Shown here: positions 6,301 through 57,041 of the stretch, one piece after another
Position numbering within the stretch: the first letter of the stretch is position 1
Layout of the letters: every line of letters begins with the position of its first letter
Source: Hexactinellida sp. DTS-2022
Lineage: Eukaryota; Porifera; Hexactinellida
NCBI GenBank assembly: GCA_028753945.1
Contig: JAPNXP010000001.1
Location: forward strand, 11,708,501-11,772,500
Reading direction: 5' to 3'
Length of the DNA: 64,000 nucleotides
Program-made: the position numbers and the translations under genes
Notes under the pieces: model-generated
Told to the model about the DNA's origin: nothing
Database searches by the model: none
The model's input: the letters and a program-made list of their open reading frames with translations, nothing else

Positions 6301-9300
6301 AATTTACTTCGGGTCAAACAAATTATTGAAACTAAGATACGTATTAAAATATAATTGTAACATCTATCATAGTAACTCGGTTCCTACTTTCCAATCGATA
6401 CAGACAATCTAGTTAAGTTGTTGATAAATTATAATTTGAGCTTTGAGGTGTTATTTTATAGAAATATAAGAAATGGCGCAAGTACAATAGTTGGAATCAG
6501 TTTTGGTGCATGAAGATATGACTTCTAGGGATATAGCAAACCGTATACTAGTACGAATACTCATTTGTACAGATACCTGTCCGGAAGAGAATCTGGAGAG
6601 TGAGGCTATCGAGAATAGGTCAGTGAACTGGCTACACGTCACAAACAGGTCCACTCCCACTTGTTTCTCGCAGCAGTCCAGCGCTAACTTCTTGTAGAAG
6701 TCTGTGCTAGCAGACAGCTGTATTGACTCTATGTTCTGAGTATGTTTCTTTAGGTAGTTTGTAGCCTAATTGTATCAATAATAAAACAACTACAGTAGAA
6801 CCCAGGGGACCGTCATACAAACACAAGGGGACCGTAAAATGCGGTCGCCTCATCTAGAATTTGTATTAACCAATATAGTTTGTATTGAAAAAGCTTTGAA
6901 GGGGACTGAAACAGTGTCCGTACTAACGAGGTTCTACTGTATAGAACAGTGGTTCTCAACCTTTTCAAATTAACGGACCCTGGCCCTGGTTGTATTAAAA
7001 AATATCTTGCGACCCAAACATTTACTAAGCGACCCAAAACATGTACAAATAATATGATACTATTATCGAGTAGGTACCGCGGCGGACCCCTTGAAATATT
7101 TCGCGGACCCCAGGTTGAGAACCACTGGTATAGAACTTATCAAAGTCGGAAGAAATAGCTATAATTATATACCGTAATATAACCATGGATGTACTCACTT
7201 GCTCCGAGCTCATAGCGCCGCTGCCCTTGGTAGGCCTCTGTGCGATGAGTACAGTGATCCTCCCGCCGCTCTGAGAAATCATCTTAAACGCAGACTCTGT
7301 CGCCACGCCCATGCAGCTCTCGTTGCTGTGCGTGTTTGCCCATATCCCCGGCAAGTCTCGGAGCAGCTGCTTGAAGGACTCCTTGGCCTCCTTGAGGTAC
7401 ACCATCAGGTCGTTGTTGGTCGGGAGGAACACCTCCTCCAGGTCGGGGATGTCGTATATGTGTGCGGGCAGGGTCCCCCGCACGCCGTAGAACTGGATGG
7501 AGTGGTTGAAGGTGACGAGACCCACCTGCGTACGGCTGTCCCCCGGCAGCTCGTCCAGACAGGAGATCAGAGTCTCACAGAAGGCAGATAGAGCGCCTAG
7601 CAATCACGCATAATCATAATAGAAAGGAAGTGTATTGGTACAAGAAAACCGGTTATAACACACAGAATCATAATACAGTAGAACCTGCATAATCCGACGC
7701 TCTATAATCCGGAATTCAGCAGAACCGACACTTTTCCTTGTCCCAATGAGCGTCGGACTATGTATTAGAGCTGCATAATCCGACAATTTTTCAATCCGAT
7801 ATTTTTTGTCTATCCCAACGGGTGTCGGATTAGCCAGGTTCTAACTTCTACTGTGGAAAGGAAGTGTATTGATACAAGAAAACTCGGTTATAAACGTACC
7901 TGGGCTACTATGTACTAATTATTTAACCAAATTTATTTAAGTAGTATGTATTTCTATGTAGATAAAAACTCGGTTAGTACAAAGAATATATGCATTTATT
8001 TCCCATTCCCGAGGGGGTACGTTATAACCGAGTTCTACTGCAGTGCACTACCTTATCCACTGGAGAGAGTGCATACCTGAGACTACGGATGAGTAGGATA
8101 CGTCCAGTACGAACACGTATACGGGGGGCTGGGGGGGCCGCAGCGCGTAGTCCGAGTTAGCAATGTATTCCACTATGGGGGACTGGACCTCAGAGTAGGT
8201 GCCGGTGTTGTGATTAGCTTTAACCGCGTCATCAGAGTTGAAGCCATCCGGGAGGGAGTTGGCTCGGTGACAAATGTTGCACTTCCATTTGCGACCGGGC
8301 AGGAATGCGATGTACGGGTTTATGTATGTTCTGCAGTTGGAACAGCGAATGATACAGGAGGTGGATACGACAGGCAGCTTGTCGCTTGAGATATCCTACA
8401 GGGAACAGAGCTGGATACAACCAGGGAATTTATGTTGAGCATAGAAACAATAGAATTCTTGGATAAATTGGAGGTTGTTCCACAGTGGGAATTTAGGTGG
8501 AAATAGGATAAAATTATCATTCTCTTGAAACTTGAATTCGTGCTTACCAGTGAATTCAGAATATCAAATAACCAAGTAATGCATAATTTCATTCTGATCT
8601 AAGAAAAATTTTGGTTGTTATGACTATTCAAAGTATTAGATTTTTGACAATTGGAATTTCTATTTTGCGGTTATAGAAAGTTACTAATGCTTCATTGCAT
8701 ATTTTGAGAACACTGTTCTTCAGAATTACTTCTCTTTTGAATATTCTGATATACATTTAATTATATATATTATATATCATAATAACATCTCAGTATAAAT
8801 TGATTATGTGATGTGGCTAACGGAAAATATACGATTCGGACAATAAATTCTTGCTTAGTCCCCCTCCTTCAAGATGATGGGAAATATCGTGTCCAGGTTT
8901 ATGCGTTTTTTTTTGTGTTTTTAATATAAAGTATACATATTTAACTTCAATATAAACCAAATTCCAGATGCGCAAAACTTTGCCCACAGATATTTTCTTT
9001 TATTATTAATTAATTTATTAAGATAAGTGATTCAAGTACAAATTATACTCCTTCAATTAAAATTATTTTTTATGCATAACAAGGAAGCTTCAGAATTTCT
9101 TAACTCGAATCCAGTGAGTTAGGGGCTACAATGAATTAGAATCTGACTAATATCAAACATTTCGGTGTCAATTTGATGAATTAAAGTTTAGCAGGGAGCT
9201 GAACTGTCGGCAAATTAGTGGAAATTTACTTTGTACATACTGAGATCTCAACAATACTGTCAAAACTAGGTTCTACTAGCTCTAAAACCTAGGTGATGTA

Positions 9301-12300: not shown

Positions 12301-15300
12301 CAACTTGTTGGCGGGTGCCAAAAGTTACCTCTATATGCCAAAAATCACATTTGGAAACCGTCCACTTTCTTCAATCAACTCGGAACATACAAACAAATAT
12401 ATATATACACATATCACGGGTCGCACGGCTCTGAAAAATCTCCGGCCAAACAGTTAAAGTGATCCGGCCAAAACCGGACCGTCCTATATAATATAGTAGA
12501 AAAAATGGAAACTGGTCCGGCCATGGCCGGACCAGCCGGACCGCGTGCTACGCCTATGATATACACCCAGCCTTGTGTTTAATAGTATAGATAAACAAGT
12601 ACAGTAGAAGCTCGCAAACCGGGGCACCTTGGCGTATCTGAAATATGCCCCACTTTGGGAGAGTGCCCCGGTTTGCGAGCTTCTACTGTATGCTGAACAC
12701 GAATTTGGCATATAAAATTTGCAATATGAATATTTATTGCTGTTGTTTACAAAATAAGTAAGGAAATCAATTAAAATTCAAAATGAACCTAGACTAGAGG
12801 TTAGCTTCCAACGGATATAATAGGTAAATGCATATGCTGAAAATGCTGATAAATGCTGTCTAATGGAAAATATGTTAGTTGTTTAGTTGAAATAACTAAT
12901 ACATGTATAGTAAGGCGTATATTCTAATTCAGGGGTTCGCAAACTTTTGTAGCATACCGGCCACACTTAGTTAGGTAAGGACATATCATTACCGGCCGCA
13001 TCTAAAAAAATTATTTTGATGCTTTTTTCGTATGAAACCTTTATAAAAATATATCAAATTCCCAGTAGTAAAGAATGTTAAAAAATCCTTAAAATGTACC
13101 AAAAATCAAAATTGTCCTCGTAGAACATTTAGGCATTGCTGCTACCGGCCGCACCAAAAAAGCAATCCGGCCGCATGCGGCCTAAAAAGGCGAGTTTGCG
13201 AACCCCTGTTCTAATTCATAAATCTAAACCGCGTAGTGGTTGAGTGATCCGTCGCAAAAGCGATTGAGGGCTCGAATAATGGAGCCTCAATGCGAATAAA
13301 TACAAATAGGAAGAAGTATAAATTTCCATTAGTAATCACGTAATTAGTATAGTAAGTGCAATATAACTGTTTGTATTAGCTACAAAGGGAAACCACATTC
13401 GCATAAGTGTACATAATTAATTAGCAATGATCAGACAAATATGTATGCAACATAAATCCCACCCATAAGATCGCAACAACAACAAATCACAAGTATACAA
13501 ATTGCGACCAAGTAAATTACAAGCTTCAATAATAATGATACTAAATCATATCAAGAAACGACAACTTGGGTCCCACAACACCACCTACACCTCATCCTCT
13601 TACAAATGCATTTTCCCTTCTAAATCAGTTAATTCTGTTTCTACCCACTCTGAGCTCGTGTACAAGTTCACCCCAGACGGCACCCAGCTGGTCACCTTTG
13701 CTCCTGACTGGAACACCCTCTCCATCCACCGCTACGCTGGCGTCACGAGGGACGCGGTCAGACGCGCCTCTGCTGACCGCATCTTCGACCAGGCCTTCCG
13801 TCTCCAGCACCAGATCACCACCCCGGAGCCCTCCACCGTCTTCTCCCCCCACTACTGCTTCCTCTTCACCAGCGACTCCCGCTTCCTGCTCACTGCCCAC
13901 AGACAGACAGTCCCCGCGGACCCGGCCCCGCCCCCGTCCGAGAGTCCCCCCGGGCTGCCCACGCGGGAGGGCTACCTGCGGGCGGGCCTCGGTCCCGAGC
14001 AGACCCCGGCGCTGCCCTCCGACCAGCTGGCCGTCTCGCACCTGCTGCTGGTCTGTCTCGGCTCCGGCCGGGTCCTGGACAGCCTGGAGGTGCTGCTGAG
14101 TCTCACTCAGCTCAGGAGCGTCAGTGCCGGCATGAGTGTCTGGCTCCACGGGTACACCCTGGCCGTGCTCTCCCCCGTCGCGCAGCGCATACACCTGCTG
14201 CGGATATCCGCCGGACCGGGGCCTGGGGACGCCCGTCTGGAGGAGTGCTGCAGTCCGATCGGCTACTTCCTCAGCTACCCGGACTACCAGCTGTTCCTGT
14301 CCCACCCGAGCCACGCGTGCGTCCCGCCCGCCGTCCCGCTGTACCCGCCGCACATGCTGTCCCAGCTGCAGCAGCAGGTGTTCGTGTGTCTCTACCGACA
14401 GCAGCTGCGCCGGGGCTCGCCCGACAGACTCCTGCGTCTCTACCTCTGCTGGGAGACCCTGCTGAGCATGCGTGTGTGGCGCATCCAGCTGCTGGACGCG
14501 CGCACGCTGCTGCTGCGCTACAAGCACACGCGCGCCCCCAACCGGACAAAGTTCCGGCTCTACAACCTCTGGGTGGAGTACTGCTGCGACACGCGGCGAG
14601 TCACGCGCGCCTGGTACGACCAGCTGGACGACTCGCGCGAGCTGCTGCAGCTCTGCGAACGGCAGCTGCCGGCCCTGCAGGACCCCGTCCGCCACAACCC
14701 CTGGTACTCGTGCCGCGCCCGCCTCCTGGAGGCCGGGGGCCGCGAGGAGGCCAGGGACGTGCTGCGACAGCTGCTGGACAGGTACCCCGTCAAGCAGCAC
14801 CGGGTGGCCTCCTACTCGCCCTACCTGGACACGCGGCTCTTCTGCGTCAGCGACCAGCTGCTGCCTGTCGTGCTCACCAACAAGATGGGGGACTTCGAGG
14901 ACTCTATTCGCTTCTACAATGCAGAGACTATGCAGTACTGTTTCTGTCTACACCTGTGCATGGGGGACTGGTCCCCTAGAGAAGTTAGGCTCGTCACACA
15001 TCCATTTGACCCTTTCATTATCTCTATTGAGAAGTACCAGGGTAACGTTGAGTATAATTTTCATTTTAGGTAATTAAATATCCTGGTACTTCCAATGATA
15101 AATTAGTGGTCACTTGGGTGTGGGAGAGTTTAACGACTCAGGAGATCGGTCTCCAGTGTGCAGGTGTAGCAGACTCTGTACTGCCTAGTCTCTGCATTGT
15201 AGAAGCGAATAGAGTCCTCGAAGTCCCCCATCTTGTTGGTGAGCACGACAGGCAGCAGCTGGTCGCTGACGCAGAAGAGCCGCGTGTCCAGGTAGGGCGA

Positions 15301-18300
15301 GTAGGAGGCCACCCGATGCTGCTTGACGGGGTACCTGTCCAGCAGCTGTCGCAGCACGTCCCTGGCCTCCTCGCGGCCCCCGGCCTCCAGGAGGCGGGCG
15401 CGGTACGAGTACCAGGGGTTGTAGCGGACGGGGTCCTGCAGGGCCGGCAGCTGCCGTTCGCAGAGCTGCAGCAGCTCGCGCGTGTCGTCCAGCTGGTCGT
15501 ACCAGGCGCGCGTGACTCGCCGCGTGTCGCAGCAGTACTCCACCCAGAGGTTGTAGAGCCGGAACTTTGTCCGGTTGGGGGCGCGCGTGTGCTTGTAGCG
15601 CAGCAGCAGCGTGCGCGCGTCCAGCAGCTGGATGCGCCACACACGCATGCTCAGCAGGGTCTCCCAGCAGAGGTAGAGACGCAGGAGTCTGTCGGGCGAG
15701 CCCCGGCGCAGCTGCTGTCGGTAGAGACACGCGAACACCTGCTGCTGCAGCTGGGACAGCATGTGCGGCGGGTACAGCGGGACGGCGGGCGGGACGCACG
15801 CGTGGCTCGGGTGGGACAGGAACAGCTGGTAGTCCGGGTAGCTGAGGAAGTAGCCGATCGGACTGCAGCACTCCTCCAGACGGGCGTCCCCAGGCCCCGG
15901 TCCGGCGGATATCCGTAGCAGGTGTATGCGCTGCGCGACGGGGGAGAGCACGGCCAGGGTATACCCGTGGAGCCAGACACTCATGCCGGCACTGACGCTC
16001 CTGAGCTGAGTGAGACTCAGCAGCACCTCCAGGCTGTCCAGGACCCGGCCGGAGCCGAGACAGACCAGCAGCAGGTGCGAGACGGCCAGCTGGTCGGAGG
16101 GCAGCGCCGGGGCCTGCTCGGGACCGAGGCCCGCCCGCAGGTAGCCCTCCCGCGTGGGCAGCCCGGGGGGACTCTCGGACGGGGGCGGGGCCGGGCCCGC
16201 GGGGACTGTCTGTCTGTGGGCAGTGAGCAGGAAGCGGGAGTCGCTGGTGAAGAGGAAGCAGTAGTGGGGAGAGAAGACGGTGGAGGGCTCCGGAGTGGTG
16301 ATCTGGTGCTGGAGACGGAAGGCCTGGTCGAAGATGCGGTCAGCAGAGGCGCGTCTGACCGCGTCCCTCGTGACGCCAGCGTAGCGGTGGATGGAGAGGG
16401 TGTTCCAGTCAGGAGCAAACGTGACCAGCTGGGTGCCGTCTGGGATGGCTTGTATGCGGTCTCAGATGTGTAGAGACAGACTTAGCAGATTTATGAGGAA
16501 AAGTGCATTGGTAAGAGGATGAGTGTGGGGGTGGGACCCCTATTCATCGCAATAACAGCATTTGGATATCCCAGCCAAAGTGCAAGCCTGATTGATTATC
16601 AAATTAATGCAATACAGTACATCTTCAGTGGATACCAAACTAACCTCAAACGAGAATAAAGAAAGAGAAAGAGAGGAGAAAGCATGAATTATTATTAGAG
16701 CCAAAGCATCCGGAAATTATTTAATATTCAACTCACAACTCAATCCTTCAAGTAAACAAGAAACACCTTTACCTGAGTGTATACAAAGAACTTTTGTATG
16801 CTTGTACGTATATTGTATGTAATATGTATAGTGTGTATTATTGGAAATTATTAAATCTTATTTCTAATAGCACGATCCTTGATAAGTAGAGAAGACAATA
16901 ATTATATAACAAAGGCGTTACACTGCAAAAGGACAAACGGTACATGCCGGATAACACATGAACCAATGTTACTAGATTAGAATTGGGAGTAAGCAGTATT
17001 TAGATCATTATAATTAAAAAGTAAATATGTAGCGGTCTATAAGATTGAAACTTGTCCGGTTCCGTAATTTGGATATTAATTAATGTTGCAGTGTAAGTGC
17101 GAATTTGGTGTATTTGCGATTACACGTGACGTGAGTTCGATGTAAGTGCGAATCAATAGATCACTAATTGATTTGTACGGTGAGTACGAATTTAATTACA
17201 GATTTCAACAATTTCGTGTAAATTTCGTGTATTCTTTCATAATCAGATAATGACATTTGCAGAATATAGCATATATATAAACAATAGTTGTATAAATGGT
17301 AACTGTATCCAAAACGCAATGTATGACTCGGAAGAAAAGAGGCTTTCCAAGAAAGTGAGAAAGAACGTAAACTTCTGAACTCTATTCTCGTAATAATTCA
17401 GAGGTATACCACAGTACAATTCCAGACTTAATCAAATCTCTATCAGATGAGGGGCAAGAATGGCACAACAAACAAACGTGTAGTAGCAATAGAAGATCTC
17501 TATGATGCTATTAAAAGGTCCATATTGATCAAAATCATAGTGGTTGGACCGGATTGTAGAAACGAATTCATCACTGCTGCATGGAGTTACAGAAAAGATT
17601 TGTCAGCTTTTCGTTTCCCACTGCAAGATATGCCAACTTAAGAAATCGAGGAAGTTCATTAAATCCCTTGTTGTCAACTTATTTCCATTCGTCAAATTAT
17701 CTCGCGGACAGATTGACTTGATTGACCTAACAACTGTATTTCCCGATGACAATGCACCTTATAAATGGCTTCTCGTATATCAAGACCATTTTACAAAGTT
17801 TGTCCGTCTACGTGCATTAGTGAATAAGTCTGCTGAAGAAGTTGCAAATACTCTCATGGATTTTTTCTGTGATTTGGGAGCTCCGCTTATCCTTCAGAGT
17901 GATAATGGACGGGAGTTTAAAGATTCTCTACTGTTTAGATTTAATGTCATGCTGAATGAAAACTGACAGTCAACAAAATCATTCATGGCAAGCCGCGTCA
18001 TCCTGAAACTCAAGACTCAGTGGAAAGAGCTAACCAAGAGAAACGTCACTTCACTGCCATGATATTCGAGAACTCGGACAACTCTTGGGTTAATTAAGTA
18101 TGTCCGCCAAGTGCAATATAAGAAGAACGCCAGCTTTCATAGCACAATAGGAATGACTCCGTTTCAAGCGCTTGGAAATCGTAAACCCCTCTAGGCCTCA
18201 CGCTCACAAAATTCGGTATTCCCATTGAAGCGATAGATAATATCTGGAGTCCAGAAGATCTAGAATTTGTGAATAATCAGTTTACCTCGTTGAGACCTGA

Positions 18301-21300
18301 AGAGTATGCAACCTCCGTGAAGTCAATATCTAATATCTACGAAAGACATTTTCGCAGTTCCCACCAATAAATATCTCCCAACAATCTCAAACTTCTATTC
18401 TACCCCGAGCATAAACGAACCCACAAATTCCATTAGCTACCTTATTATAGGAAATTAACGCGAAGGAAATTAACACTCCATAAAATTAACGTGAATTGGA
18501 GCTGAACATTTTCAAATACATTAAATTAACGCGAATAAATTTTATTAAAAAAATTCAGGATTATTAATCTCCTGATGCAAAATGCATCAATATCGCAATC
18601 TTGAAGTGTAAGAATTGCTCAAATTTAATATGTTCCGTGTAATCGCGAATACAGCAACAATTTGGTTTAATCGCGAATACACCAAATTCGCACTACACTG
18701 CAACATTAATATGCACTCAATTCTGTAACTAATTAATTAAGAGGAACATAAACTACGATTATCAGTAAGTATAGCAGTACGTAAAAGTGGCGATAACAAG
18801 TAATTATGTATTTTTTGATGGCTTTGTAACCGATATAGTTCGGTAGTAATCTACCGATTGTAGTGCATAAGTATTCTAGAATGGATACTGTACAAATAGC
18901 TTGGGAATGCAACAATATAAACTGACTCTGAAGGGCTGAATGAGAATCCCGAACGGCAGTTTGCTTTTGTTCAGCAGAGATTTGGAGTATGGAATGCAGT
19001 TGAGTGTGGAGCAGAGCATGTATGGATCGAACTGCATCTTGGTCCTGACTCCAATGCTCACGTTAGGCAGCGGGGGCTCCGGTATGTACTTGGGCAGGAT
19101 GTTCCGCGTGTCCAGCAGGTTTACCGGCTCCAGCTCCGGCGGCAGCACCTGCTGCTGGAAGGAGGGCGTCTGGCTGAACTGAGCCGATCCTCCTATTCAG
19201 GAATAGTGTGTAAACCAGTGGCTCAGTGGCTCCCAACCTGGGTACACGGACGGCAATAGAGGTCAACAAGATCTTTAAATTAGTATTACGGGCAATGGGA
19301 GGATACACATAATGTTTAGTATAGTTGACAAAGGTTGGGAAAACCTTTCTGATAATTAGAACTAAGCTTATTGCATTACAGACAATTGAATATTTCCAGT
19401 AGAATAACCAGTAACTAGCTGGATACATTACAAATGAATAATGTTTCATGACAGCATAGTTAGCATATTATGTATGTATTATTACCACGGTTACACAGCT
19501 AGGCTTGTACATAACACAGACTAACCAGTGGGTTGGAACTGCGACTGTCCGTACGCGGGCTGCTGTCCGGGCCCAGTCTGCAGAGGCCGCTGTGTATCCA
19601 CTCCCACACTGGGGGAGAGGGAGTGCTGGAACGGAGGCGGGGCCATCTGCTGTGCGGCCGGGTACTGCGGCTGTCCTGTGTGGGGTTAATTATACACAGT
19701 GGAACTCGGTTAGTACGTACCTGGGTTAGTACGGACTAATTTGTATTATAAAGAAAGTTTGTCAATCTATACGTATCTCTATGCATTGTCAACTCGGTTA
19801 GTACGTACACTGGATAATAGGTACTAAGTTTTCTCTCCCGAGGGGATACGTATTAACCAAGTTCTACTATATTGGAACAAAATGTATTACAGGTCTCCAG
19901 TTAGTATAAGTAGAATTCGGATATAACGTCCCCCTTGGGAAAGGAAAATAAGTACGTATTATCCGAGTGTACATACTAATCGAGTTTACCCTGCATAGAA
20001 ATACATACTGCTTTATAAATTTGTTAAAATATTCGTACTAAGCCGAAATAAGTTAAATTAACACAGATACGATATAACCGAGTGCTACAGTACCAGAACA
20101 CCATGGATGTAGAGTATTTGAATGACGTCCACGATTGGGCGCGAGATTATCGATATTTTTTTAACAATTTTTAAGCAAAAGATGCTTACAGTACTACACG
20201 AGTCATTAGGATAAATAAATGTGAAATTTGTCAGCCAGCACGAGTCTAATCCTCTCATTCAAACAGCCATGCAAATATCAATCTAATTTAAAATCTGCTC
20301 GAGGATCCCCGACCCTTTGTGACGCTTAGTAATAACCTGGTGCAATCACATAATCATGGGATTGTTCATAAATTGTATATTAGTTAAAAGCGGGGTCATT
20401 GTTATGATTAGTCCACCAATAATGTAATTGAAATATCAGACAAGTGATTGTTATAATTGTTAAAATATTTTGCTATAGAAGCAAAATAACTTTAATTTAG
20501 AGAAACGCTTGAACATACCATAAGCTACTGTGAGTTACTAACCTATTAATTGTCGATTGAATGACAGTTAGGAAATGAACATATTATACTGTATTCTCTT
20601 TCAATTGTAAGTGGGCCAGTAATTAAATCACTGCCATTCAATTATTGTTTGTTTGTTTGTTGTTCGTGTGGGTTGGAATAATATAGAGGAACGAAGCAAG
20701 GCTATGTTCCTAAATAAGGAATCTGGAGTATACGTACAGTGGTGTTCGCCTAATAGAAATTCCTCTAATAGCAAGTTATTTCAGAATTCAGTTCCCAAGC
20801 GAACATTTAATGCTAATTTTGTTGTCTAATAGCAAGTTCGCCTATTAGGATGCAAATTTCGTGCAAAACGCGACTTGCAATTACGCGAACAGCACTACAG
20901 TTTCTATGAGTGTGGTACCTTGAGTGGGGAGCTGCGCGGCAGAGGGGGGGAGGGGGTCTCTCTGGATGCTCTGAGCCCAGGGCTGGGGCCCGGGCTGCTG
21001 CTGGGAACTGAGAGCTGCCTGGGGGCCCTGGGTACCCAGAGGCGCGAAGAGAAGGGAGGGAGGGGGGTTCTGGCCCTGGGTGACTAGGGGCTGGATATTG
21101 GCTGCGGGGGCGGGGCGAGTGGGAGCGGTGAGCTGGGAGTTGGAGACGGGGGCGGGGGCGGGGCGAGTGGGGGCATGCAGCATGGAGGCTACCTGGCCAG
21201 CGGGGGGCTGCTGAGCTGGCTAGAAAGGATATATTAATACTGCACTTTATAAGACTATCCTACAGTCAACTCCCGTTATAACAAGTCGGATATAACGAAA

Positions 21301-37100: not shown

Positions 37101-40100
37101 GGGACTTGAGATAACACACAATAAGTTAAGCTGAGATTAATTCTCTATGAATCCATGGTACTCACTCATGTATCTAGCTGCGCCCGTGGCAGGGTAGAAG
37201 TAAGCCGTGAAGTCTATCCAGACGGTGGGGGCGTCTTGTCCGAACTTGTAGCTGCCCTTATCCGAGGCTATGAAGGGCCTCTGCTTGTCGGGACTGTCCC
37301 CTGTCGAGACGGGAGAGATGCTGAAGTCCACGCAGCGGAAGCAAATAACGCTCTCCCTCAGCTTGTGCAGACTCACGCCCACGAAGAGCAGTCGGGACCC
37401 TGTCTGGACGCGCGAGGCCTTCTTCTCGGTCTCCTTCAGGAGTCCGTTTCCCCACTCCGTCCGCTCCTGGAACTTGTAGTCGAAGCTGGCCCAGTGGTGT
37501 CGCTGTGAGCCGGCCCGCTGGTCCGGATATATGTCCAGTCCCAGGCCTGACAGCTGCACGTGTGTGGACTCGAGTCTGTGGAGACTCTCCGCGGAGGAGG
37601 CGGGGGTGTGGCAGCAGAGATGCACGTCCAGCTTCTGCACGCGGAAGTGAATGGAAGTCTGCACTATGAGTCCGGGCGGGATCCGCCTCTTGCCCTGCTG
37701 GTACGCCTCTATGTTCTCGTCCTCGTGGATGAATGTGGACTGCAGGTGCATCATGCTAGCGGATATGTCTACCTATGTACAGTCGACAACAGTTAAATCG
37801 AACTTTCACTAATTCGAACAAATTTATTTTTCCTTGAAATTTGGAAGCCCATCCCATACAATATCCGTTCGATAATTCGAAAATTCGCTAGTTCGAACAA
37901 ATTTATTTCACCCCCTGAGGTCGAATTAACGGATGTTGACTGTACATTAGTTAACAGCTATTGTCGCTACACAACCTACCTTTCCCTCCTCGTCTTTGTG
38001 TATGAAGTTACGAGACTGCCCGGAGCTCGTCTTCCTGGCAGCGCTCTTCTGAGTCTGCGGCGGCGCTTCTGTCTGTCTCCGTCTCAGCTTCTGCAGGCCC
38101 CTGGGCTCGGGCTCCCGAGGGCCCGGGGCCGGGGGGATGGGGGGCCCCAGGGCCGTCTGCTCCTGCTCCATCGCCTTAGCCAGCTCGTGGAGCTGCTTCA
38201 GGTGCTGCATAAAGTGGGAGGCCTCTTTGAGCTCCGAGTCGTTGAGGATGATGGAGAGCACCCCGAGCTGTATTATGAACTTGCTGCACATGTGCGAGCA
38301 GTCGGCTAGCTTCTTCTTCATCGAGAAGTTTATGAAGGAACTGTCGCAGTTCAAGCGTATCAGCTGACTGTCCGTCTTCGTGAGAAGAGAGGACCTAGCC
38401 GTCGCCTACAGTACAATGTAGATATAAATACAGTAGAACCTCGTGAGTAAAACTAAAACACAAGGGGACCGTCAAAATGTGTTCGATTATTCGGAATCGT
38501 ATTAAACATATATTTTGTATTGAAAAGACTTTGAAGGGATTGAAATAGTGTTCGCGTTCGTATTAACAGTGTTCCTACTAAGGAGGTTCTACTGTACTTC
38601 CCAACTGATAGAATCCTTCCTCATACCTTAATGCAGAGAAATGACAGTTGTCTGAAAACAGTAACGGACTGGTCTGCATTGTTGACAGGTCTGCTTTTGA
38701 TAAGATCGTCCAAACAGCTCTTGAATTCGTGGTTCGTACACTTGAGTGTAATGCCGGAGACCTCGAGATCTGCCCTGAACTGTGTGGAAGTGAATTCTAT
38801 GTTTATTGACTCTACTTCAATGAACATGCTGTCCAGCACTTTCTCTGTCAGCCCATACTTTGATCTGGATAGGACAGTATACACAGATTGGAATCAATGG
38901 GTTGTGTGTCAGCTCCTTTGGTATTAACTCATTTCTGTTATCTCAGTTAGTTATGGCTTAAACTAAACAGTTAATTATGCAACGGAACTTCCTTAGCTCC
39001 CGTTAGTCAAGAATACGGATAACTTCACTTGCAAGGGTTGCCGTGGGAATGGTATTTAAATTCCCATTCCATTCTCACAGAATTTCTGTGGGAATTCCCA
39101 GCTCTACCAAATGATAGTATTCTGTAAAACAAGTACACTATTGACTGAATGTGGATAAAAATCAGGGTTCCGCGAACTAGGTTTTTCAATGCGGCCTAAA
39201 ACAACCTAATGTGTGGCCTTGATAGCCCAGTGGAAATTTGTATCATGTGTGACCTGAGAGACATTTCTAATTTTAATCTGGCCTGTACACATATACACAC
39301 TGATTATTACCTTTCCTTTATGCACTTTTTGCTTAGAATTAGTATAGTTCTAGTATTGCAACAACATAATAGTTTTGTTATAAAATTCGAAAAAAAAATC
39401 GATAATGTTTGCGGCCTGAGGAAAATTTTGTTAAGATTATGTGGCCTGATTTAAATGAAAGTTTGCGGAACCCTGGGATAAATATACAAATTTATACTAT
39501 AAAAACTCGATTGTTGGGTGTTTTGTGTATTTGTTTGTTAGCCAGGATTGTATAAAAGTGATGGGGGATTAGAACCGCATTTATAGTTGAGATAGCTAAT
39601 AGAGACTAAAATCCAAATGTTATAATAGGTAAACAAGTATGCTGATTTCGAATTTCGCATTTATATATTTATAATATGAATATTTGTTGTTGTTGTTTCA
39701 CAAATAGGTAAACAAATTAATGAAAATACAAAATTACCTAGAGGCTAGCTTCCAAATGGGTATTATAGGTAAACCAGCATGCTGAACACGAATTTAAAGT
39801 CTACAAATTTATGATGAGAATATTTGTTGTTGTTGTTGACAAAATGGCGTAATCAAATCTATTAAAATTCAAAATGAACTTAGACTAACTTCCAAATGTT
39901 AGAAAAGGTAAACAAGTATGCTGATTACGAATTCAAATTATATCACCTACGAAGCTACCGAAGGGCTCGTAGAATATAATAATAGTAATTGTACGTACAA
40001 TTGATAAAATATACGTATAGGATTCCTACATGTGGGGATTCCCACAGTATTCCCATAGGCAAAAAAATTCCCATTTCCACCCATATGAGAATCCTATGGG

Positions 40101-44707: not shown

Positions 44708-45350
44708 TCCTTCTAATTTTATGCAGCAGTATAAAGCTTGCAGCCGTATTTTGTACAGAGAAATAGGTACACTTTAAATCTTCTAAATTCTAATCATTTA
44801 CCATGCATTCACTAAATATGAGAAAATAATCACACTTCATGATTGTATTAAATATGTATAACCACACTATATGAAAATATTTTAATCCATTAATTAATAT
44901 ACTAAAGAATACGATTAGTTGTACAACAATAAACGCAATACACACAAGACTAAACTCGTGTTCAGAAACGAACAAAATTCAGGTTTCTTAACTAATTCTC
45001 CATTAAAGTACTATTTATTGTCATTGCGAGATCCAACTGCGTAAACACACGCTAGCACTTATCACAGCTACCTGTAGTCAGGTCATTCCACGTGTCTTCT
45101 CAAGAAGGCATCCTAACACGCCCACACATTTCAGTGTCTTATAGTGTTAGCTATAAACATATTCTGTTTTGTCTATGTGTATGTACTAATTAACCACTCA
45201 AGCAGCAGTTAATAATTAAATGAATTAAATCTAGACTTTGAGTTCCTACCCCATATTCAATAGTATATCTGTATCATCTACTTTCTAATACAATTTACTA
45301 TCAAAGGACATATCCAATACGAAACAAGGTGGATAAATAACAAAAGGTAC
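44708..45350. other. BLTP3 upstream region and RAD50-copy 3' flank
   Basis: The first part is the BLTP3 promoter side, with no recognisable element. From about 45213 the sequence is a diverged copy of the RAD50 downstream flank ('ctttctaatacaatttacta' recurs at 45280, 46822 and 51480), showing that the duplicated segment extends past the coding sequence. Confidence 0.55.
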
Positions 45351-45783
45351 TCAATAAGAGTTGTGGGAGAAGGCTAGTTTATTTATCTGGGAATAGTTGT
45401 CGGTTTTTGTCAATCGCCAGTAGCTAGTAGTGCTCCACAAATTCTGAGTGTGCGAATTTCTCGACAAATTTCTGGTCGTGGGTTATCAAAATCATTTGAA
45501 AGCCAATAAATCGATCAAATTCTCAGCCAGAGAAGCCACATTCCTTTGATCCAGATTTGTGGTCGGCTCATCAAGTGCGACGCCAGTCGAATAAGGATGC
45601 ACGCCAGGACCTTCTGACCCGCGCTGCACCGCCCCCGCATCCCCATCTCTATCTCCCCCTTCATCATAACGACTCTGTAGTTGTACGAGCACCTGCCAGT
45701 AGCACTGCTGGTCCCTTCGTCATCAGCAGAAATCTGTATGTAGTCTATATCGGAGCCCTTGTAGATGTTCTGCCAGAGCTCCT
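45351..45783 (-). pseudogene. RAD50: short 3' fragment of RAD50
   Basis: On the minus strand it encodes the last 130 or so residues of RAD50: [35 protein letters not shown] (signature motif), [21 protein letters not shown] deletion of about 33 bases removes LAETFCGKCGII, and another takes out most of EAKAQGKSNFQMI, so the frame is broken and Walker B is damaged. It ends abruptly at 45783, just before a pair of perfect GC-rich palindromes. It is more diverged in its 3' flank than the other two copies, suggesting it is older. Confidence 0.9.
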
Positions 45784-45830
45784 GCTATCTGTCTCTCTGT
45801 ATGTATATGTTGCAGTCAAGTGCGTTTCAA

Positions 45831-45876
45831 CGCCAAACGCGTTTGGCGCATTTTAGTTCAGCCAAACGCGTTTGGC
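45831..45876. repeat. two perfect 16-18-bp palindromes
   Basis: CGCCAAACGCGTTTGGCG at 45831-45848 and GCCAAACGCGTTTGGC at 45861-45876, with a degraded third half-copy to 45900. They sit just beyond the breakpoint of the RAD50 fragment. Confidence 0.8.
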
Positions 45877-46399
45877 GTGTTTCTATACGCCATTCGCGTT
45901 TCTAACATTATTTCTTTTATTTGCTGCTATTTAATTAATGCTAGTTAGATTATTCACAAACAGAGTATCTAATTAATATTCAAATATCTGTTCTACAATA
46001 TTTACTGATAATTTTCATCTGTGTACTAAAATAATACCATTGCGACTTATACTAAATATTTAATTAAAACCATCGTGAATTAAAAACAATTCACGTTCAA
46101 ACTAAGTAATTGAACAATATGTACTTGAACTATATGTACCTCGCCTAGAGAGAAATATAATTCCGAATAATTCCTTCTGATTGCACTTCCCCAATGTTTA
46201 ATTTAATTAAGTATAATTTCAATATTCATATTACATTTATCTTAGTAATATAATTTAATTATATTTTGAATTGTGAAGACTTCAAATGTGTAAATTAAAA
46301 TTAAAGATTAATTAAAATTATTACAAATAGAAATTAGGATACGTGTAGTATTTACGTTACTATTTTGAATAATATAATTGACATCATCAACTTTGTAAA

Positions 46400-46545
46400 A
46401 TGTTCGATGTTCCAACTTTCACGGAGGGAGACACTTGTGTACAGAGACATTTGTGTACAAGACTAGTGCGACATTTGTGTACAACTTTGGTACGACACTT
46501 GTGTAGACAGATTTTTGTGTACAGACTGTAGAGCTGTAAATGGCT
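46400..46545. repeat. irregular short repeats of 'acacttgtgtac'
   Basis: At least five copies of 'cattgtgtaca'-like words (acttgtgtacagagac, atttgtgtacaa, cacttgtgtag) occur in 150 bases. There is no coding meaning, though they give a small open frame on the minus strand. Confidence 0.5.
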
Positions 46546-46889
46546 CACATTAAGTAGGCCATGTGTGTGTAGCACTAATAAAACTATAGTAGGAACCTAC
46601 TATATAACGTTTTTTACTAGAAGCACACTGCACACTAAAAATAATTTAGTCGATATTGTAAAATCTGTGTTGGGGTTTTGTTCCACTACTAGAGTTGAGT
46701 TAATAGAGCCACCGGTAAATAGATTTATCCGCTTAATGAGGTCAAAATGATAGTTTGGCTTAATAATTAAATCTAGATTTTGAGTTCCTACCCATATATA
46801 AATAGTATCTGTATAATCTACTTTCTAATACAATTTACTATCAAAGGGCAATTCAATACGAAACAAGTATGATAAATAACAAAAGGCAC

Positions 46890-48179
46890 TCAATAAGAGT
46901 TGTGGGAGAAAGCTAGTTTCTGTATTTGGGAATAGTTGTCGGTTTTTGTCAATCGCCAATAGTGTTCCACAAATTCTGAGTGTGCGAATTTCTCGACAAA
47001 TTTCTGGTCGTGGGTAATCAGAATCATCTGAAAGTTAGATTTTCCTTGAGCCTTGGCTTCCAATAAATCAATCAAATTCTCAGCCAGAGAAGCTACATTC
47101 CTTTGATCTAGATTTGTGGTTGGCTCATCAAGTGCGATAATCCCGCATTTCCCACAGAACGTCTCTGCTAGCGCCAGTCGAATAAGGATGCACGCCAGGA
47201 CCTTCTGACCCGCGCTGCACCGCCCCCGCATCCCCATCTCTATCTCCCCCTTCATCATAACGACTCTGTAGTTGTACGAGCACCTGCCAGTAGCACTGCT
47301 GGTCCCTTCGTCATCAGCAGAAATCTGTATGTAGTCTATATCGGAGCCCTTGTAGATGTTCTGCCAGAGCTCCTGTAGGATGGCGTTGATCTGCTCTATC
47401 TTGCTTTTGTGGAACTGCATCATGCATCTGTCCAGCTTGTGGTACGCGTAATCCAAGTCTTTAATGAGGTACCCCACCGTCATGAGCTCATGACGGTGGG
47501 GTACCTCATTAAAGACTTGGACTATGCGTACCACAAGCTGGACAGATGCATGATCGAACTTCTCCAAGATGGTCAGAATAGCTTTCAGCTGCTTCTCCTG
47601 CAGGCTTATTTCCTGCGCCAGCTCGTTCTCCTGTATGGCCAGCTGGTCGTGCTCGGCCAGCAGAGACGGGAGTGTGGCCTTCTCCACAGTGAGCATGTCC
47701 TCGCTGGTGCCTGAGAGCCGCTGCAGGTTCTCCAGCCTCCCGCGCAGCTCCGACAGCTGCGACTGCTGCTGCGACATCATGGTGGGCGCCACGTGCGTTA
47801 TGCGCTTCTGCAGGGACTCGAGCACCGGCTTCATGCCCTCCGGCTTGTCGAACGCCCGCTTGCAGACGGGACACGCGTGTCTCTGCTCTATGAAGCTGAG
47901 ACAGTCCTTGTAGAACTGCTTCGAGCTGGAGACGGACATCAGCTTGTCCTGCTCGGCCTGCTGCTCCTGCTTCAGCTCCTCCACCCTCCAGTTTGGAGCT
48001 GGCTCTCTTCCTCTCGCCCTCCTTGTTTTGAGAGCCAGCAGCTTCCCCTCTCCTCTTCTTACCCCCCGCTCGTACCTCTTCACCTCGCTCCTGCCCAGGA
48101 GCTTGGGGTCTGTCACGAACGCGTTTCCCGGCGCGTTGGGGGGGTAACAGCCGGTTGCCATAAACCGCAGACACTCCAT
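46890..48179 (-). pseudogene. RAD50: internally deleted RAD50 copy with an open 429-codon frame
   Basis: The frame runs MECLRFMATGCYPPNAPGNAF to FSHNSY with no stop. It lacks everything before IIECL, so there is no Walker A; the ATG exists because I of IIECL is ATG here rather than ATA. Most of the coiled coil is gone in at least three deletions: after GRSEVK, after GKLLALK and after LTILEK. It keeps the zinc hook CPVC (C103, C106), the signature [13 protein letters not shown] and Walker [13 protein letters not shown]. Upstream of 48180 it still matches the RAD50 start region, with the codons between GCAATAG and the P-loop deleted. A 134-bp palindrome lies at the third deletion (47420-47553). 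Possibly expressed as a small protein, but more likely a pseudogene. Confidence 0.8.
47420..47553. repeat. 134-bp palindrome (67-bp arms, no spacer)
   Basis: Centred at 47486/47487 (catgag-ctcatg). Both arms carry the RAD50 stretch encoding MTVGYLIKDLDYAYHKLDRCM, once in sense and once inverted. Only a few mismatches occur near the arm middle. It sits at the junction of a large coding deletion. Confidence 0.92.
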
Positions 48180-48226
48180 TATAGAGGTCTTCCCGGCCCC
48201 GTTTTCCTATTGCTAGCCCAACAAAA

Positions 48227-51310: not shown

Positions 51311-51552
51311 ACAAAATTTTACATTCTAGTTATTATTTCAACCCTCATTATTATTTACTCTTAATCTTCAATATTATCTTAATTAACTTAAATTTTCATT
51401 ATTAAAAATTCCGGGACGAAAATTCCGGCGACGAAAGTTCCGTTTACCCTGGTTTACCATATAAATAGTATCTGTATAATCTACTTTCTAATACAATTTA
51501 CTATCAAAGGGCAATTCAATACGAAACAAGTATGATAAATAACAAAAGGCAC

Positions 51553-54500
51553 TCAATAAGAGTTGTGGGAGAAAGCTAGTTTCTGTATTTGGGAATAGTT
51601 GTCGGTTTTTGTCAATCGCCAATAGTGTTCCACAAATTCTGAGTGTGCGAATTTCTCGACAAATTTCTGGTCGTGGGTAATCAGAATCATCTGAAAGTTA
51701 GATTTTCCTTGAGCCTTGGCTTCCAATAAATCAATCAAATTCTCAGCCAGAGAAGCTACATTTCTTTGATCTAGATTTGTGGTCGGCTCATCAAGTGCAA
51801 TTATCCCGCATTTCCCACAGAACGTCTCTGCTAGCGCCAGTCGAATAAGGATGCACGCCAGGACCTTCTGACCCGCGCTGCACCGCCCCCGCATCCCCAT
51901 CTCTATCTCCCCCTTCATCATAACGACTCTGTAGTTATACGAGCACCTGCCAGTAGCACTGCTGGTCCCTTCGTCATCAGCAGAAATCTGTATGTAGTCT
52001 ATATCGGAGCCCTTGTAGATGTTCTGCCAGAGCTCCTGTAGGATGGCGTTGATCTGCTCTATCTTGCTTTTGTGGAACTGCATCATGCATCTGTCCAGCT
52101 TGTGATATGCGTAATCCAGGTCTTTAATGAGGTACCCCACCGTCATGAGCTCGAACCTCTTGAGGTCATGCTCCCGTATAATGTTCCGGTACTGCTCCGA
52201 CTCGAGGATGCGTCTCAGCTTGTCCACCTGCTTCCTCTTCTCTTCCAGCTCGCCCGTCAGTTTGTCCCGCTTAGATCTCTTCGTCTTCAGCACGGTCTCT
52301 ATCTGCCGTAGGGCGGCCTGCAGCTTCTTGGGCGGGTTCCTCTCCAGCTCCTCCCCCAGCCCCGCGATCTCCTCTCGCAGCTGCCGGAGACTCGCCTGGT
52401 GTCCGATGAGCTCAATCGCGTCTGTGTACTCCCGGGTTATGTTCCTGGAGTTGGCGATCTCGTTCTCTATCTTGGAGATGTTAGCTCGCAGCTCCCCCAG
52501 CCTCTCGCCAAGACTCTCAGTCCTGCTCTTGGCCTGGGCGATCTCTCGCAGACAGGCCTCGTACTCCGTCTGGCTAATGGCAGAGGAGGCAGAGTCAATC
52601 TCACACTGCTTCTCACCGATCTTAGAGATCAGAGACCTGAACAGTTCTATCTTCCTTCTCTTGCCACTCAGGGTTTTCTCATTCTCCGTGCGCTTCTCCT
52701 TCAGCTCGCTCTCGAACTTGAGGATGCGACTCTTGATGGGAGCGAGCGACTGCCTCACCTCCCGGATGCTCCTCTCCAGAGTCTCCATCCTCCCCTCCAG
52801 CTCGGCTCTCTTCTCCACTAGCGCGGTCTGCTTCTGCTGCCGCTGTCGCTGTTCCAGCTGGGCAGACCTCAGCTCGTGCAGGCGCTGCTCCTTGCCCCGC
52901 AGCTCCCGCTCGTGCTTCTGCTGGGAGGCTTGCTTCTCTGCGATCTGAGAATCGAACAGCTTTATTTCCCTCTGCGTCTTGCGCAGCTGCGCCCTGACCT
53001 CCTCGAGGGACCTGGAAGCAATCGGGTTCTTCAGTTTCTTAGACTCAGTGCTTATCTTGGAATCTATTTCCTCGCACTCGTTCTCTTTCTCGCCCAGTAC
53101 GCGGACATCTGGGACGAGAGTGTTTATCTTCTCCAAGATGGTCAGTATAGCTTTCAGCTGCTTCTCCTGCAGGCTTATTTCCTGCGCCAGCTCGTTCTCC
53201 TGTATGGCCAGCTGGTCGTGCTCGGCCAGCAGAGACGGGAGTGTGGCCTTCTCCACAGTGAGCATGTCCTCGCTGGTGCCTGAGAGCCGCTGCAGGTTCT
53301 CCAGCCTCCCGCGAAGCTCCGACAGCTGCGACTGCTGCTGCGACATCATGGTGGGCGCCACGTGCGTTATGCGCTTCTGCAGGGACTCCAGCACCGGTAA
53401 AATGCCCTCCGGCTTGTCGAACGCCCGCTTGCAGACGGGACACGCGTGTCTCTGCTCTATGAAGCTGAGACAGTCCTTGTAGAACTGCTTCGAGCTGGAG
53501 ACGGACATCAGCTTGTCCTGCTCGGCCTGCTGCTCCTGCTTCAGCTCCTCCAGCACCTCAGAGTGCTCCCGCTCTCCGCAGAGCTCCCGCTTGCGGCTGT
53601 TGAACCTCTCCAGGCTCTCCCTGCACTGGGCCGCCTGCTGCTCGCACATGTTCCTCTTAGCGGCCGCCTCGCTCAGCTCCCTGTTGAGACCCTCCAGTTT
53701 GGAGCTGGCCCTCTTCCGCTCGCCCTCCTTATCCGCCTTGAGAGCCAGCAGCTTGCCCTCCAGCTCCGAGAGGGGCGGCGGCCACACGAACAGAGACTCC
53801 AGCTCGGGGTTTATCCTGTCTAGCGTCTCGGACACAGACCTCTTCTTACCCGCCCTCTCTCGCTCGTAGCTCTCCAGCGTCCGACGCACGAACTCCTCTC
53901 TCTCCAGCTCGTTGTTCTCCCGCTCCAGCCCCGGCACCAGTCTCTCCCGCTCCTGCCTCCTGTCTGCCAGCAGCTGGAGCTCTGACTCGGTCTGCTCCGG
54001 GTCCCGACTGCCCCGCAGAGCCGCCAGCTCCTCCCCCGCAAGCTCTATGCTCTCCTGGATGTCCTCCAGCTCCCGCCCCGGCCCCTGCTCCTCTCGGACA
54101 CTCACCAGTCGCTGCTCAGTCTCGCGCTGCTCCTCCTCGCGGATCTTGCAGGTCTGTTCCTGTTTGGCCTGCTCCCTCAGCAGGTCCTCCTTCCGCGAGA
54201 CCAGCGCCCGCTCCTGCTCCTCCACCTCTGACGTCACGCTCCGCAGCTCCGACTCCAGCAGCCGCAGGTGCGACTTTCCGCGCGAGAGCGAGTCTCTCCC
54301 GAGGGACCCCGGGGAGGAGAGGAGCGGGGAGCTGGAGGAAGACATCACGGCGGTCAGCTCGTCCATCATTTCTTTCATAATTATTTTCTTGTTTTCCAGA
54401 GACTTTCTGTTCTCGTCCAGTTTCCCGAGTCGCTGTTGCTGCTGCCTCAGCTGTTTCTCGGCCTCCCCGCGGTTCCCCTCCGCCTCCCTCAGCTCTCTGT

Positions 54501-55473
54501 CTCGCGACTTCTGACACCTCTCTTCTGCGCGCATCCGCTCCGCGTGCTCCTCCTTCTCCCGCCGCAGAACCGCCACCTCCCCGCTAGGGTCGATGTGAAG
54601 GAACTTCCCTTCAAAGCTCGTGATATTCTGCTCCAGGTGTCTGCGGGTGTTCAGCTTGCTCCTGTGCTCGCCCTCCCGCCGCTGCGCAGCCTCCAGCAGC
54701 TCGCTGCCGCGGGAGAGCTCCCGCTCCTTCTCCCCGACGCAGGCCTCCAGATCGGAGGATTCGCTTTCCTTGGCTGTCACCGCCTTCTCGAAGGAACTCA
54801 GCTCGAACTTGAACTCGTCCACCTGGTTCTTCTTGTCGCCCATGTGCTTGAGGTCGTTCTCTAGCAGCTTCCATTGGCTCTGGTATTCGCTCTTGAGTTT
54901 CTTCAGATTCTCAAGTGCTTTCGTGAACCGCGTAATCTCGAAAATGTTATCGAATCTCCTCTTCAGCTCCTTGCCCTCCTCCAGCGGCCAGTGCGACTCC
55001 TCCTGGTGGCAGAATATAACGGAGGAGAGCACGTACTTGGACACGCCCAGCTGCCGCACCATCTCCCTGTCGAAGTCTGTGCACTTTGAGGAAATGGAAG
55101 TCTTCACCTCGCCCCCCCTGCTCAGACTGGACTCCAGTGACTTGGTGGTTATCTGTCCGTTCGGCTTCAGAGTGGAGTGCAGCAGTCTGGTGGCACAGAA
55201 GTCTTCTCCCGTGTGGTTCTTGAAGTCGAGCATAACCTTGCTTTTCACCTCGCTCCTGCCCAGGAGCTTGGGGTCTGTCACGAACACGTTTCCCGGCGCG
55301 TTGGGGGGGTAACAGCCGGTTGCCATAAACCGCAGACACTCTATTATAGAGGTCTTGCCGGCCCCGTTCTGCCCGGCTATTATAGTGATCGGAGACTCGA
55401 ACTTTATGTTGCTCTCCTGCATCGGGTGGAAGCTGCGGATACCCATTATCTGCAACTTGTCGAGAGTAGTCAT
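51553..55473 (-). CDS. RAD50: RAD50, DNA double-strand-break repair ATPase, single exon
   Basis: An uninterrupted frame of 1,306 residues from ATG 55473; human RAD50 has 1,312. RAD50 with MRE11 and NBS1 holds and processes broken DNA ends and starts ATM signalling. Features in order: N-terminal ATPase half with Walker A GQNGAGKT (residues 36-43), Q-loop region VIFCHQEESHWPL, long coiled coil with heptads rich in Glu, Arg and Leu, zinc hook CPVC at about residues 678-681, returning coiled coil, signature [13 protein letters not shown], Walker [13 protein letters not shown] and the C-terminal VEHYWRL. Start choice: MTTLDKLQIMGIRSF aligns to the family N-terminus, whereas the upstream MYYILLL stretch does not. 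No intron interrupts it, although vertebrate RAD50 has about 25 exons. Two damaged copies lie downstream. Confidence 0.95.
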   Translation of the reverse strand: MTTLDKLQIMGIRSFHPMQESNIKFESPITIIAGQNGAGKTSIIECLRFMATGCYPPNAPGNVFVTDPKLLGRSEVKSKVMLDFKNHTGEDFCATRLLHSTLKPNGQITTKSLESSLSRGGEVKTSISSKCTDFDREMVRQLGVSKYVLSSVIFCHQEESHWPLEEGKELKRRFDNIFEITRFTKALENLKKLKSEYQSQWKLLENDLKHMGDKKNQVDEFKFELSSFEKAVTAKESESSDLEACVGEKERELSRGSELLEAAQRREGEHRSKLNTRRHLEQNITSFEGKFLHIDPSGEVAVLRREKEEHAERMRAEERCQKSRDRELREAEGNRGEAEKQLRQQQQRLGKLDENRKSLENKKIIMKEMMDELTAVMSSSSSPLLSSPGSLGRDSLSRGKSHLRLLESELRSVTSEVEEQERALVSRKEDLLREQAKQEQTCKIREEEQRETEQRLVSVREEQGPGRELEDIQESIELAGEELAALRGSRDPEQTESELQLLADRRQERERLVPGLERENNELEREEFVRRTLESYERERAGKKRSVSETLDRINPELESLFVWPPPLSELEGKLLALKADKEGERKRASSKLEGLNRELSEAAAKRNMCEQQAAQCRESLERFNSRKRELCGEREHSEVLEELKQEQQAEQDKLMSVSSSKQFYKDCLSFIEQRHACPVCKRAFDKPEGILPVLESLQKRITHVAPTMMSQQQSQLSELRGRLENLQRLSGTSEDMLTVEKATLPSLLAEHDQLAIQENELAQEISLQEKQLKAILTILEKINTLVPDVRVLGEKENECEEIDSKISTESKKLKNPIASRSLEEVRAQLRKTQREIKLFDSQIAEKQASQQKHERELRGKEQRLHELRSAQLEQRQRQQKQTALVEKRAELEGRMETLERSIREVRQSLAPIKSRILKFESELKEKRTENEKTLSGKRRKIELFRSLISKIGEKQCEIDSASSAISQTEYEACLREIAQAKSRTESLGERLGELRANISKIENEIANSRNITREYTDAIELIGHQASLRQLREEIAGLGEELERNPPKKLQAALRQIETVLKTKRSKRDKLTGELEEKRKQVDKLRRILESEQYRNIIREHDLKRFELMTVGYLIKDLDYAYHKLDRCMMQFHKSKIEQINAILQELWQNIYKGSDIDYIQISADDEGTSSATGRCSYNYRVVMMKGEIEMGMRGRCSAGQKVLACILIRLALAETFCGKCGIIALDEPTTNLDQRNVASLAENLIDLLEAKAQGKSNFQMILITHDQKFVEKFAHSEFVEHYWRLTKTDNYSQIQKLAFSHNSY

Positions 55474-55800
55474 TGCTATTGTTAGCCCAACCAACAGTAA
55501 TATGTAGTACAAGATATATATGTTGTAAATAAGAGAAATAGAGTAGGCGGCGAGATTGAGTAATACTTAAATAGAAAGGGTTTAACTAAATATTATGGGT
55601 TGTTAAAAATTTATTATATCCCAGATCTATTCCAGTTATTTGTTCACTTCTAAGTGTGAATATTTGGTAAACAAGTTGCTGAATACGAATATTACACTCG
55701 CAAATCTATATTATTAAATCTCGATTGTTGTTTGTTTGTGTGTGTGTGTGTTTGTCCGGATTGTATTAAAGTGATGGGGGAATAGAAACCGCAATTAATA

Positions 55801-56960
55801 TTGGGATATAAACTAACTTTCAAATGTTATAATAGGTAAACAATTCTTATAATAGGTAAACAAGTATGCTGAACACGAATTTCGCGTTTATAAATTTCTC
55901 ATATGAATATTTGTTGTTGTTGTTTACACAAAATAGGTAAACAAATTAATGAAAATTCAAAATCAACCTAGAAGTTAGCTTTCAACGGGTATTGTAGGTA
56001 AACAAGTATGCTGAACACGAATTTCGCGTTTATAAATTTATCATATGAATATTTGTTGTTGTTGTTTGCACAAAATAGGTAAACAAATTAATGAAAATTC
56101 AAAATCAACCTAGAAGTTAGCTTTCAACGGGTATTGTAGGTAAACAAGTATGCTGAACACAAATTTCGCGTTTATAAATTTATCATATGAATATTTGTTG
56201 TTGTTGTTTGCACAAAATAGGTAAACAAATTAATGAAAATTCAAAATCAACCTAGAAGTTAGCTTTCAACAGGTATTGTAGGTAAACAAGTATGCTGAAC
56301 ACGAATTTCGCGTTTATAAATTTCTCATATGAATATTTGTTGTTGTTGTTTACACAAAATAGGTAAACAAATTAATTAAAATTCAAAATCAACCTAGAAG
56401 TTAGCTTTCAACGGGTATTGTAGGTAAACAAGTATGCTGAACACGAATTTCGCGTTTATAAATTTCTCATATGAATATTTGTTGTTGTTGGTTACACAAA
56501 ATAGGTAAACAAATTAATTAAAATTCAAAATCAACCTAGAAGTTAGCTTTCAACGGGTATTGTAGGTAAACAAGTATGCTGAACACGAATTTCGCGTATA
56601 AATTTCTCATATGAATATTTTTTGTTGTTGTTTACACAAAATAGGTAAACAAATTAATGAAAATTCAAAATCAACCTAGAAGTTAGCTTCCAACGGGTAT
56701 TATAGTTAAACAAGTATGCTGAACACGATTTTCGCGGTTAAAATTTTCTAATATGAATATTTGTTGTCGTTGTTTACACAAAATAGGTAAACAAATTAAT
56801 GAAAATTCAAAATCAACCTAGAAGTTAGCTTTCAATGGGTATTATAAGTAAACAAGTGTGCTGAACACGAATTTCGCATTTATAAAATTCTAATATGAGT
56901 ATTTGTTGTTGTGGTTTACACAAATAGGTAAACAAATTAATGAAAATCAAAATAATAACT
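55801..56960. repeat. 142-bp satellite array, 8 units
   Basis: The word 'caagtatgctgaac' recurs at 55861, 56003, 56145, 56287, 56429, 56571 and 56711, with 'caagtgtgctgaac' at 56853, so the period is 142 bp, one unit being 140. Each unit also has 'gaatatttgttgttgttgtt' and 'aaattcaaaatcaacctaga'. Divergence rises toward both ends, the usual pattern of unequal exchange. Confidence 0.93.
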
Positions 56961-57041
56961 TCCCTTTCTACCATTTCACAGTGGCTTAAAATCGCAGTTG
57001 GTAGGGAATAGATATCTGTGTGCACTTTAGCCTATTATAAT

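Follow-up and report, generated by a model that had tools for sequence, protein, structure and literature searches.

A long inverted repeat with coding sequence of the DET1 family in both arms was found within an intron of a SEC24 gene of the sponge Hexactinellida sp. DTS-2022 (GenBank assembly GCA_028753945.1), and is probably best explained by an old tail-to-tail duplication whose middle part was later homogenised by gene conversion. The repeat lies in a stretch of 64,000 nucleotides (hereafter the window; positions 11,708,501 to 11,772,500 of the forward strand of contig JAPNXP010000001.1), and positions are given below in window coordinates unless a contig is named. One arm holds a full-length open reading frame and the other a truncated one, the identity between the arms drops sharply at the edges of a central core, and neither arm closely matches the main DET1 gene of the genome.

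In the scenario that we propose, a divergent DET1-like paralog that lies antisense within the long SEC24 intron would have undergone a tail-to-tail duplication long ago, and the right copy would then have lost its start and tail through indels. At a more recent date, the 1.28 kb in the middle would have been homogenised between the arms, either by gene conversion or by template switching between the inverted repeats, with the left copy remaining an open, full-length gene. We infer both the direction and the recency of the conversion, as well as the absence of an RNA function: the capacity of SEC24 pre-mRNA to form a hairpin would be a by-product of duplication and conversion, and not evidence for a regulatory RNA.

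Structure of the arms and the identity step

The near-identical core arms occupy positions 13669–14946 of the plus strand (left arm, the presumed converted tract) and 15170–16447 of the minus strand (right arm). Each is 1278 nt long, they differ at 17 positions with no gaps, and 223 nt separate them. Beyond the cores, degraded homology extends the arms to ~13568–15044 and ~15079–16539 in a gap-aware local alignment, the outermost homologous bases of the two arms being ~34–36 nt apart. In a global alignment with the right copy, the left outer flank (13567–13668, plus strand) has 18 mismatches and 10 gap columns over 93 aligned bases, and the left inner flank (14947–15045, plus strand), which is the C-terminal coding part, has 21 mismatches and 11 gap columns over 88 aligned bases. 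Past the core, both flanks together thus differ at 39 of 181 aligned bases, versus 17 of 1278 within it (gap columns, 21 versus 0; Fisher p = 1.5e-24). A preliminary description of this DNA had reported 1.4-kb arms with DET1 coding sequence, separated by a spacer of ~145 bp. The long inverted repeat is real, and each of its arms does contain coding sequence of the DET1 family, but the near-identical part is 1.28 kb in length, and the reported spacer agrees neither with the distance between the cores nor with that between the outermost homologous bases.

Among exact inverted matches within 3 kb, the longest measured 247 nt in the segment 13501–16600, compared with 28 nt in the part of the window to its left and 70 nt in the part to its right. 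Inverted repeats of at least 100 nt were absent from five background stretches of 10 kb (four on contig C1 and one on contig C11, out of 160 drawn at random), a sample that, at 50 kb, is too small to give a genome-wide rate. A DNA search of the genome (112.4 Mb in 18 contigs) with the left arm, in which very common words were skipped, returned two scored candidates, both of them the arms themselves.

Fold-back artefacts are a known problem of long reads, and the palindrome could in principle be a fold-back read or a chimera that arose during library preparation or assembly; the same assembly does contain a ~20-kb duplicate, 99.7–100% identical, around the main DET1 gene. However, a fold-back read would not be expected to give arms with 17 differences between them, nor the divergence and indels seen at their ends and on the sides facing the spacer. 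Because the arm ends differ, this explanation was disfavoured, and we consider it very unlikely.

The left copy (13535–15073, plus strand) is a single open frame of 512 amino acids plus a stop, with an ATG at 13535. Its product matches the Pfam Det1 family (PF09737) at 101.8 bits over profile positions 3–411 of 412 (the cut-off is 25 bits), and the DET1 homolog chains 9lul and 9ltj in PDB with E ~1e-19 over residues 22–512; its C-terminal end is DET1-like. A motif scan revealed an ATTAAA that overlaps the left-copy stop (15073–15078, plus strand), which we take to be a variant poly(A) signal, while the first AATAAA on the plus strand past position 15000 is found at 16655, beyond the right arm. 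The right copy (15130–16461, minus strand) is a truncated, pseudogene-like open frame of 443 amino acids. A stop is located just upstream of the core, the DET1 C-terminal tail is out of frame, and the copy stays open across the core alone, where it matches the Det1 profile at 69 bits (positions 43–361 of 412), which is also above the cut-off. Judged by its sequence, the left copy appears to be an open, full-length gene with a putative protein function.

A simple recent duplication, from which even identity along the arms would be expected, does not fit the sharp identity step. The inner step falls inside the left-copy coding sequence, and constraint on the protein was considered as its cause, which would require that the core alone be constrained. 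Residues common to human and main-copy DET1 are kept in the left protein at 61 of 113 positions in the core, 5 of 11 in the N-terminal part, and 11 of 20 in the C-terminal part (the counts at the ends are small). Since the core and the parts beyond it retain such residues at similar rates, the step is not accounted for by constraint, and this cause was rejected. The repeat thus shows what marks a gene-converted inverted repeat, namely a sharp identity step that is not explained by selective constraint.

Several points weigh against the proposed scenario. In the left frame, the 17 core differences comprise 6 synonymous and 11 non-synonymous ones (one a stop), and the resulting non-synonymous share of 0.65 is to be compared with 0.74 expected if single-base changes were equally likely; being close to the neutral expectation, it gives no clear indication that the protein has been constrained since the last time the arms matched. 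Other frames of the GC-rich core also stay open over hundreds of codons, and an open frame by itself is therefore weak evidence. The left gene is known from its sequence, its expression being putative, and the conversion would be deduced from a single genome.

Arm-to-arm gene conversion is known from the palindromes of mammalian sex chromosomes, as described by Jackson et al. 2021 (PMC8981503). The likeness consists in inverted, near-identical, GC-rich arms that are kept alike by conversion. The present repeat differs in that it is 1.28 kb long and intronic, one of its copies is truncated, and conversion is proposed from one genome.

The host intron and the main DET1 gene

The preliminary description had placed both arms in a SEC24 intron, and this was borne out: both lie within one minus-strand intron, read from the sequence as positions 18926 to 8396 (10,531 nt, GT...AG, phase 0). 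The splice sites (GT donor at 18926, AG acceptor ending at 8396) are predicted, as the best candidates by eye. The exon region upstream of the intron (18927–19196, minus strand; exon start not fixed) matches Sec24A with E 1.4e-11, and the downstream region (8051–8395, minus strand; exon end not fixed), which contains zf-Sec23_Sec24, was identified by Pfam and Sec24A matches. In the Sec24A chain 2nup_B, residues 5–76 match the exon ending at 18927, and residues 79–181 match the exon starting at 8395. The same intron also harbors an integrase-core (rve) fragment at 17544–17966, which scores 33.1 bits against a Pfam cut-off of 32.6.

A search of the whole genome with the Pfam Det1 profile returned four matches, two at 254 bits (contig C1, 5.48 and 5.52 Mb), and the two window copies at 99 and 65 bits. 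The two strong DET1 copies are identical across the compared loci of 4,191 bases. Over 480 aligned residues, the left copy shares 33% identity with this main DET1, and the codon-aligned identity is 48%. At 389 aligned positions in the core, human DET1 has 113 matches with the main copy and 98 with the left copy. The closeness of these two counts suggests that the window paralog is old, and it does not look like a recent copy that has decayed. The left copy thus resembles DET1 in covering nearly the full Det1 profile and in matching the PDB DET1 chains, and differs from it as a divergent paralog of the stronger gene. The statement that the arms carry DET1 holds insofar as both contain DET1-family coding sequence, but this sequence belongs to a paralog other than the strongest DET1 of the genome, and the right copy is incomplete as a gene.

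The ~20-kb segment with the main DET1, which is present twice (in C1:5475000-5535449), would be either a true duplication or an uncollapsed haplotype, and it is surrounded by many repeats of 0.4–3 kb in both orientations. DET1 is a partner of DDB1-DDA1-COP1. Searching the genome with the DDA1 profile gave no match, the profile being silent in every control genome as well, and the first-propeller domain of the DDB1/RSE1 type had three genome matches, which were not separated from SF3B3 or CPSF1.

Hairpin potential and small RNAs

The preliminary description had also proposed that the unspliced SEC24 intron can fold into a hairpin, and the layout supports this capacity, provided that both arms are present in one transcript. 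Folding of 751 nt around the loop gave −663 kcal/mol, compared with a mean of −276 kcal/mol for 20 shuffled sequences, and the aligned stem contains 989 fully paired 21-mers and a longest perfect run of 247 bp. The long inverted repeat can, in other words, form the near-perfect stem of a hairpin RNA (hpRNA).

A further proposal was that the hairpin yields small interfering RNAs (siRNAs) against the main DET1 gene, coupling a COPII gene to a ubiquitin-ligase cofactor. Apart from the membership of the arms and the main DET1 in the same protein family, the evidence speaks against it. The longest exact match between either core arm and the main DET1 coding sequence, to which this comparison was confined, was 11 nt in the sense and 10 nt in the antisense direction; the best ungapped 21-mer matched at 17 of 21 positions (sense) and 15 of 21 (antisense). 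With such matches, siRNAs that pair perfectly with the coding sequence of the main DET1 are excluded, and direct targeting of this gene was rejected; we give the proposal practically no credence. Nor was a separate target with extended complementarity, such as an hpRNA would have, found in the genome DNA search with the left arm, which skipped very common words, or in the main DET1 coding sequence. The regulatory story is thereby corrected, in that the stronger DET1-family copy is located elsewhere and beyond the reach of perfect base pairing by the stem.

Gene families that could act on a hairpin are present in the genome. Argonaute/Piwi profiles had 15 matches (some of them clearly belong to a single gene as separate exons), RNase III had nine, and the adenosine-deaminase (ADAR-type) domain had five at two loci. 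RNA-dependent RNA polymerase (RdRP; PF05183) had ten; seven of these span 535 or more of the 582 profile positions, each within an uninterrupted frame of 2106–2785 codons. These seven long RdRPs are of the cellular type (C15:1312120, C11:1531723, C7:2137069, C11:14649043, C4:4486919, C18:872328, and C8:2299595), and the remaining matches are three fragments on contig C1. The RdRP set is unusually large for an animal. RdRPs are present in several animal groups (PMC6396948). Given these genes, dicing or editing of the unspliced hairpin is possible. Searches for the microRNAs mir-103 and let-7 gave no match among the scored candidates (60 of 6265 and 57 of 18595, respectively), and they gave none in any of the controls either.

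A hairpin directed at its own locus was therefore weighed as well. The stem would be formed by SEC24 pre-mRNA, or by left-gene transcripts that read through past the poly(A) signal, Dicer would cut it, the siRNAs would silence the left paralog, and conversion would keep the arms matched. The fully paired 21-mers and the perfect run of the stem, together with the Argonaute/Piwi, RNase III, and RdRP families, are consistent with such a device, as are Drosophila hpRNAs, whose arms consist of gene fragments and some of which originated close to their target or within a transcription unit that already existed (PMC10317233). However, the locus is known here from its DNA, nuclear splicing would normally remove the intron that holds the stem, the ADAR-type matches at two loci point to editing as an alternative fate, and the sole close target found for the arms was the arm itself. 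We regard the self-directed hairpin as unlikely. The more elaborate version, in which SEC24-derived siRNAs, perhaps amplified by RdRP, would repress the nested paralog and conversion would keep the trigger matched to its target, so that the intron hairpin acts as a self-silencing device, seems slightly less likely still.

With Drosophila hpRNA loci (PMC10317233), the repeat shares a long inverted arrangement of protein-gene sequence, a hairpin-capable transcript, and a near-perfect stem; it differs in that one arm retains a full coding frame and in that siRNAs, dependence on Dicer, and a separate target would be putative here. Among the matches listed in literature searches on nested inverted duplications, intronic endogenous siRNA, DET1 paralogs, and SEC24, no title or start of an abstract dealt with this locus. 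If duplication and conversion are indeed its origin, the locus would illustrate how hairpin-capable sequence arises as a by-product of these two processes in a host intron. With both RNAi and ADAR-type families in the genome, it would also be a natural place to test what becomes of long double-stranded RNA in an intron, which may be diced, edited, or just removed.

Base composition and other repeats of the window

The duplication-and-conversion scenario might be extended by a GC bias: GC-biased conversion between the arms could have raised the GC content of the core to its very high level and enriched the protein in amino acids whose codons are GC-rich. Third-position GC in the left copy is 0.904 in the core and 0.51 and 0.50 at the ends, compared with 0.727, and 0.56 and 0.57, in the main DET1 (core comparison, p = 3.6e-11), and a GC bias is documented for primate X palindromes (PMC8981503). 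On the other hand, seven other genes or exons of the window have middle third-position GC of 0.71–0.82, mostly lower at one end (a very short SEC24 segment reached 1.0), and the longest frames of fetched genome loci range from ~0.24 to 0.77, showing that wide variation occurs without any palindrome. Duplicated parts of RAD50 in the window have third-position GC of 0.72, versus 0.81 in its unique parts; not being GC-richer, they were rejected as a second case of GC-driven conversion. The GC-bias extension is thus a tentative one, and we think it rather doubtful. Among individual genes, third-position GC was 0.26 for RNase III and 0.34 and 0.56 for RdRP, compared with 0.7–0.8 in most window genes; a range of 0.25–0.56 in other long frames of the genome further lowered the standing of the GC-bias extension.

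RAD50 itself is represented in the window by a full frame and broken partial copies (45312–48206 and 51459–55566), whose pieces are mostly 97–99.5% identical, some 83–93%. One partial copy contains a near-perfect palindrome at 47419–47554, with 68-nt arms that are 97% identical and no spacer, related to 52082–52152. A 142-nt tandem repeat array occupies positions 55706–56997, and has a diverged relative at 39615–39873.

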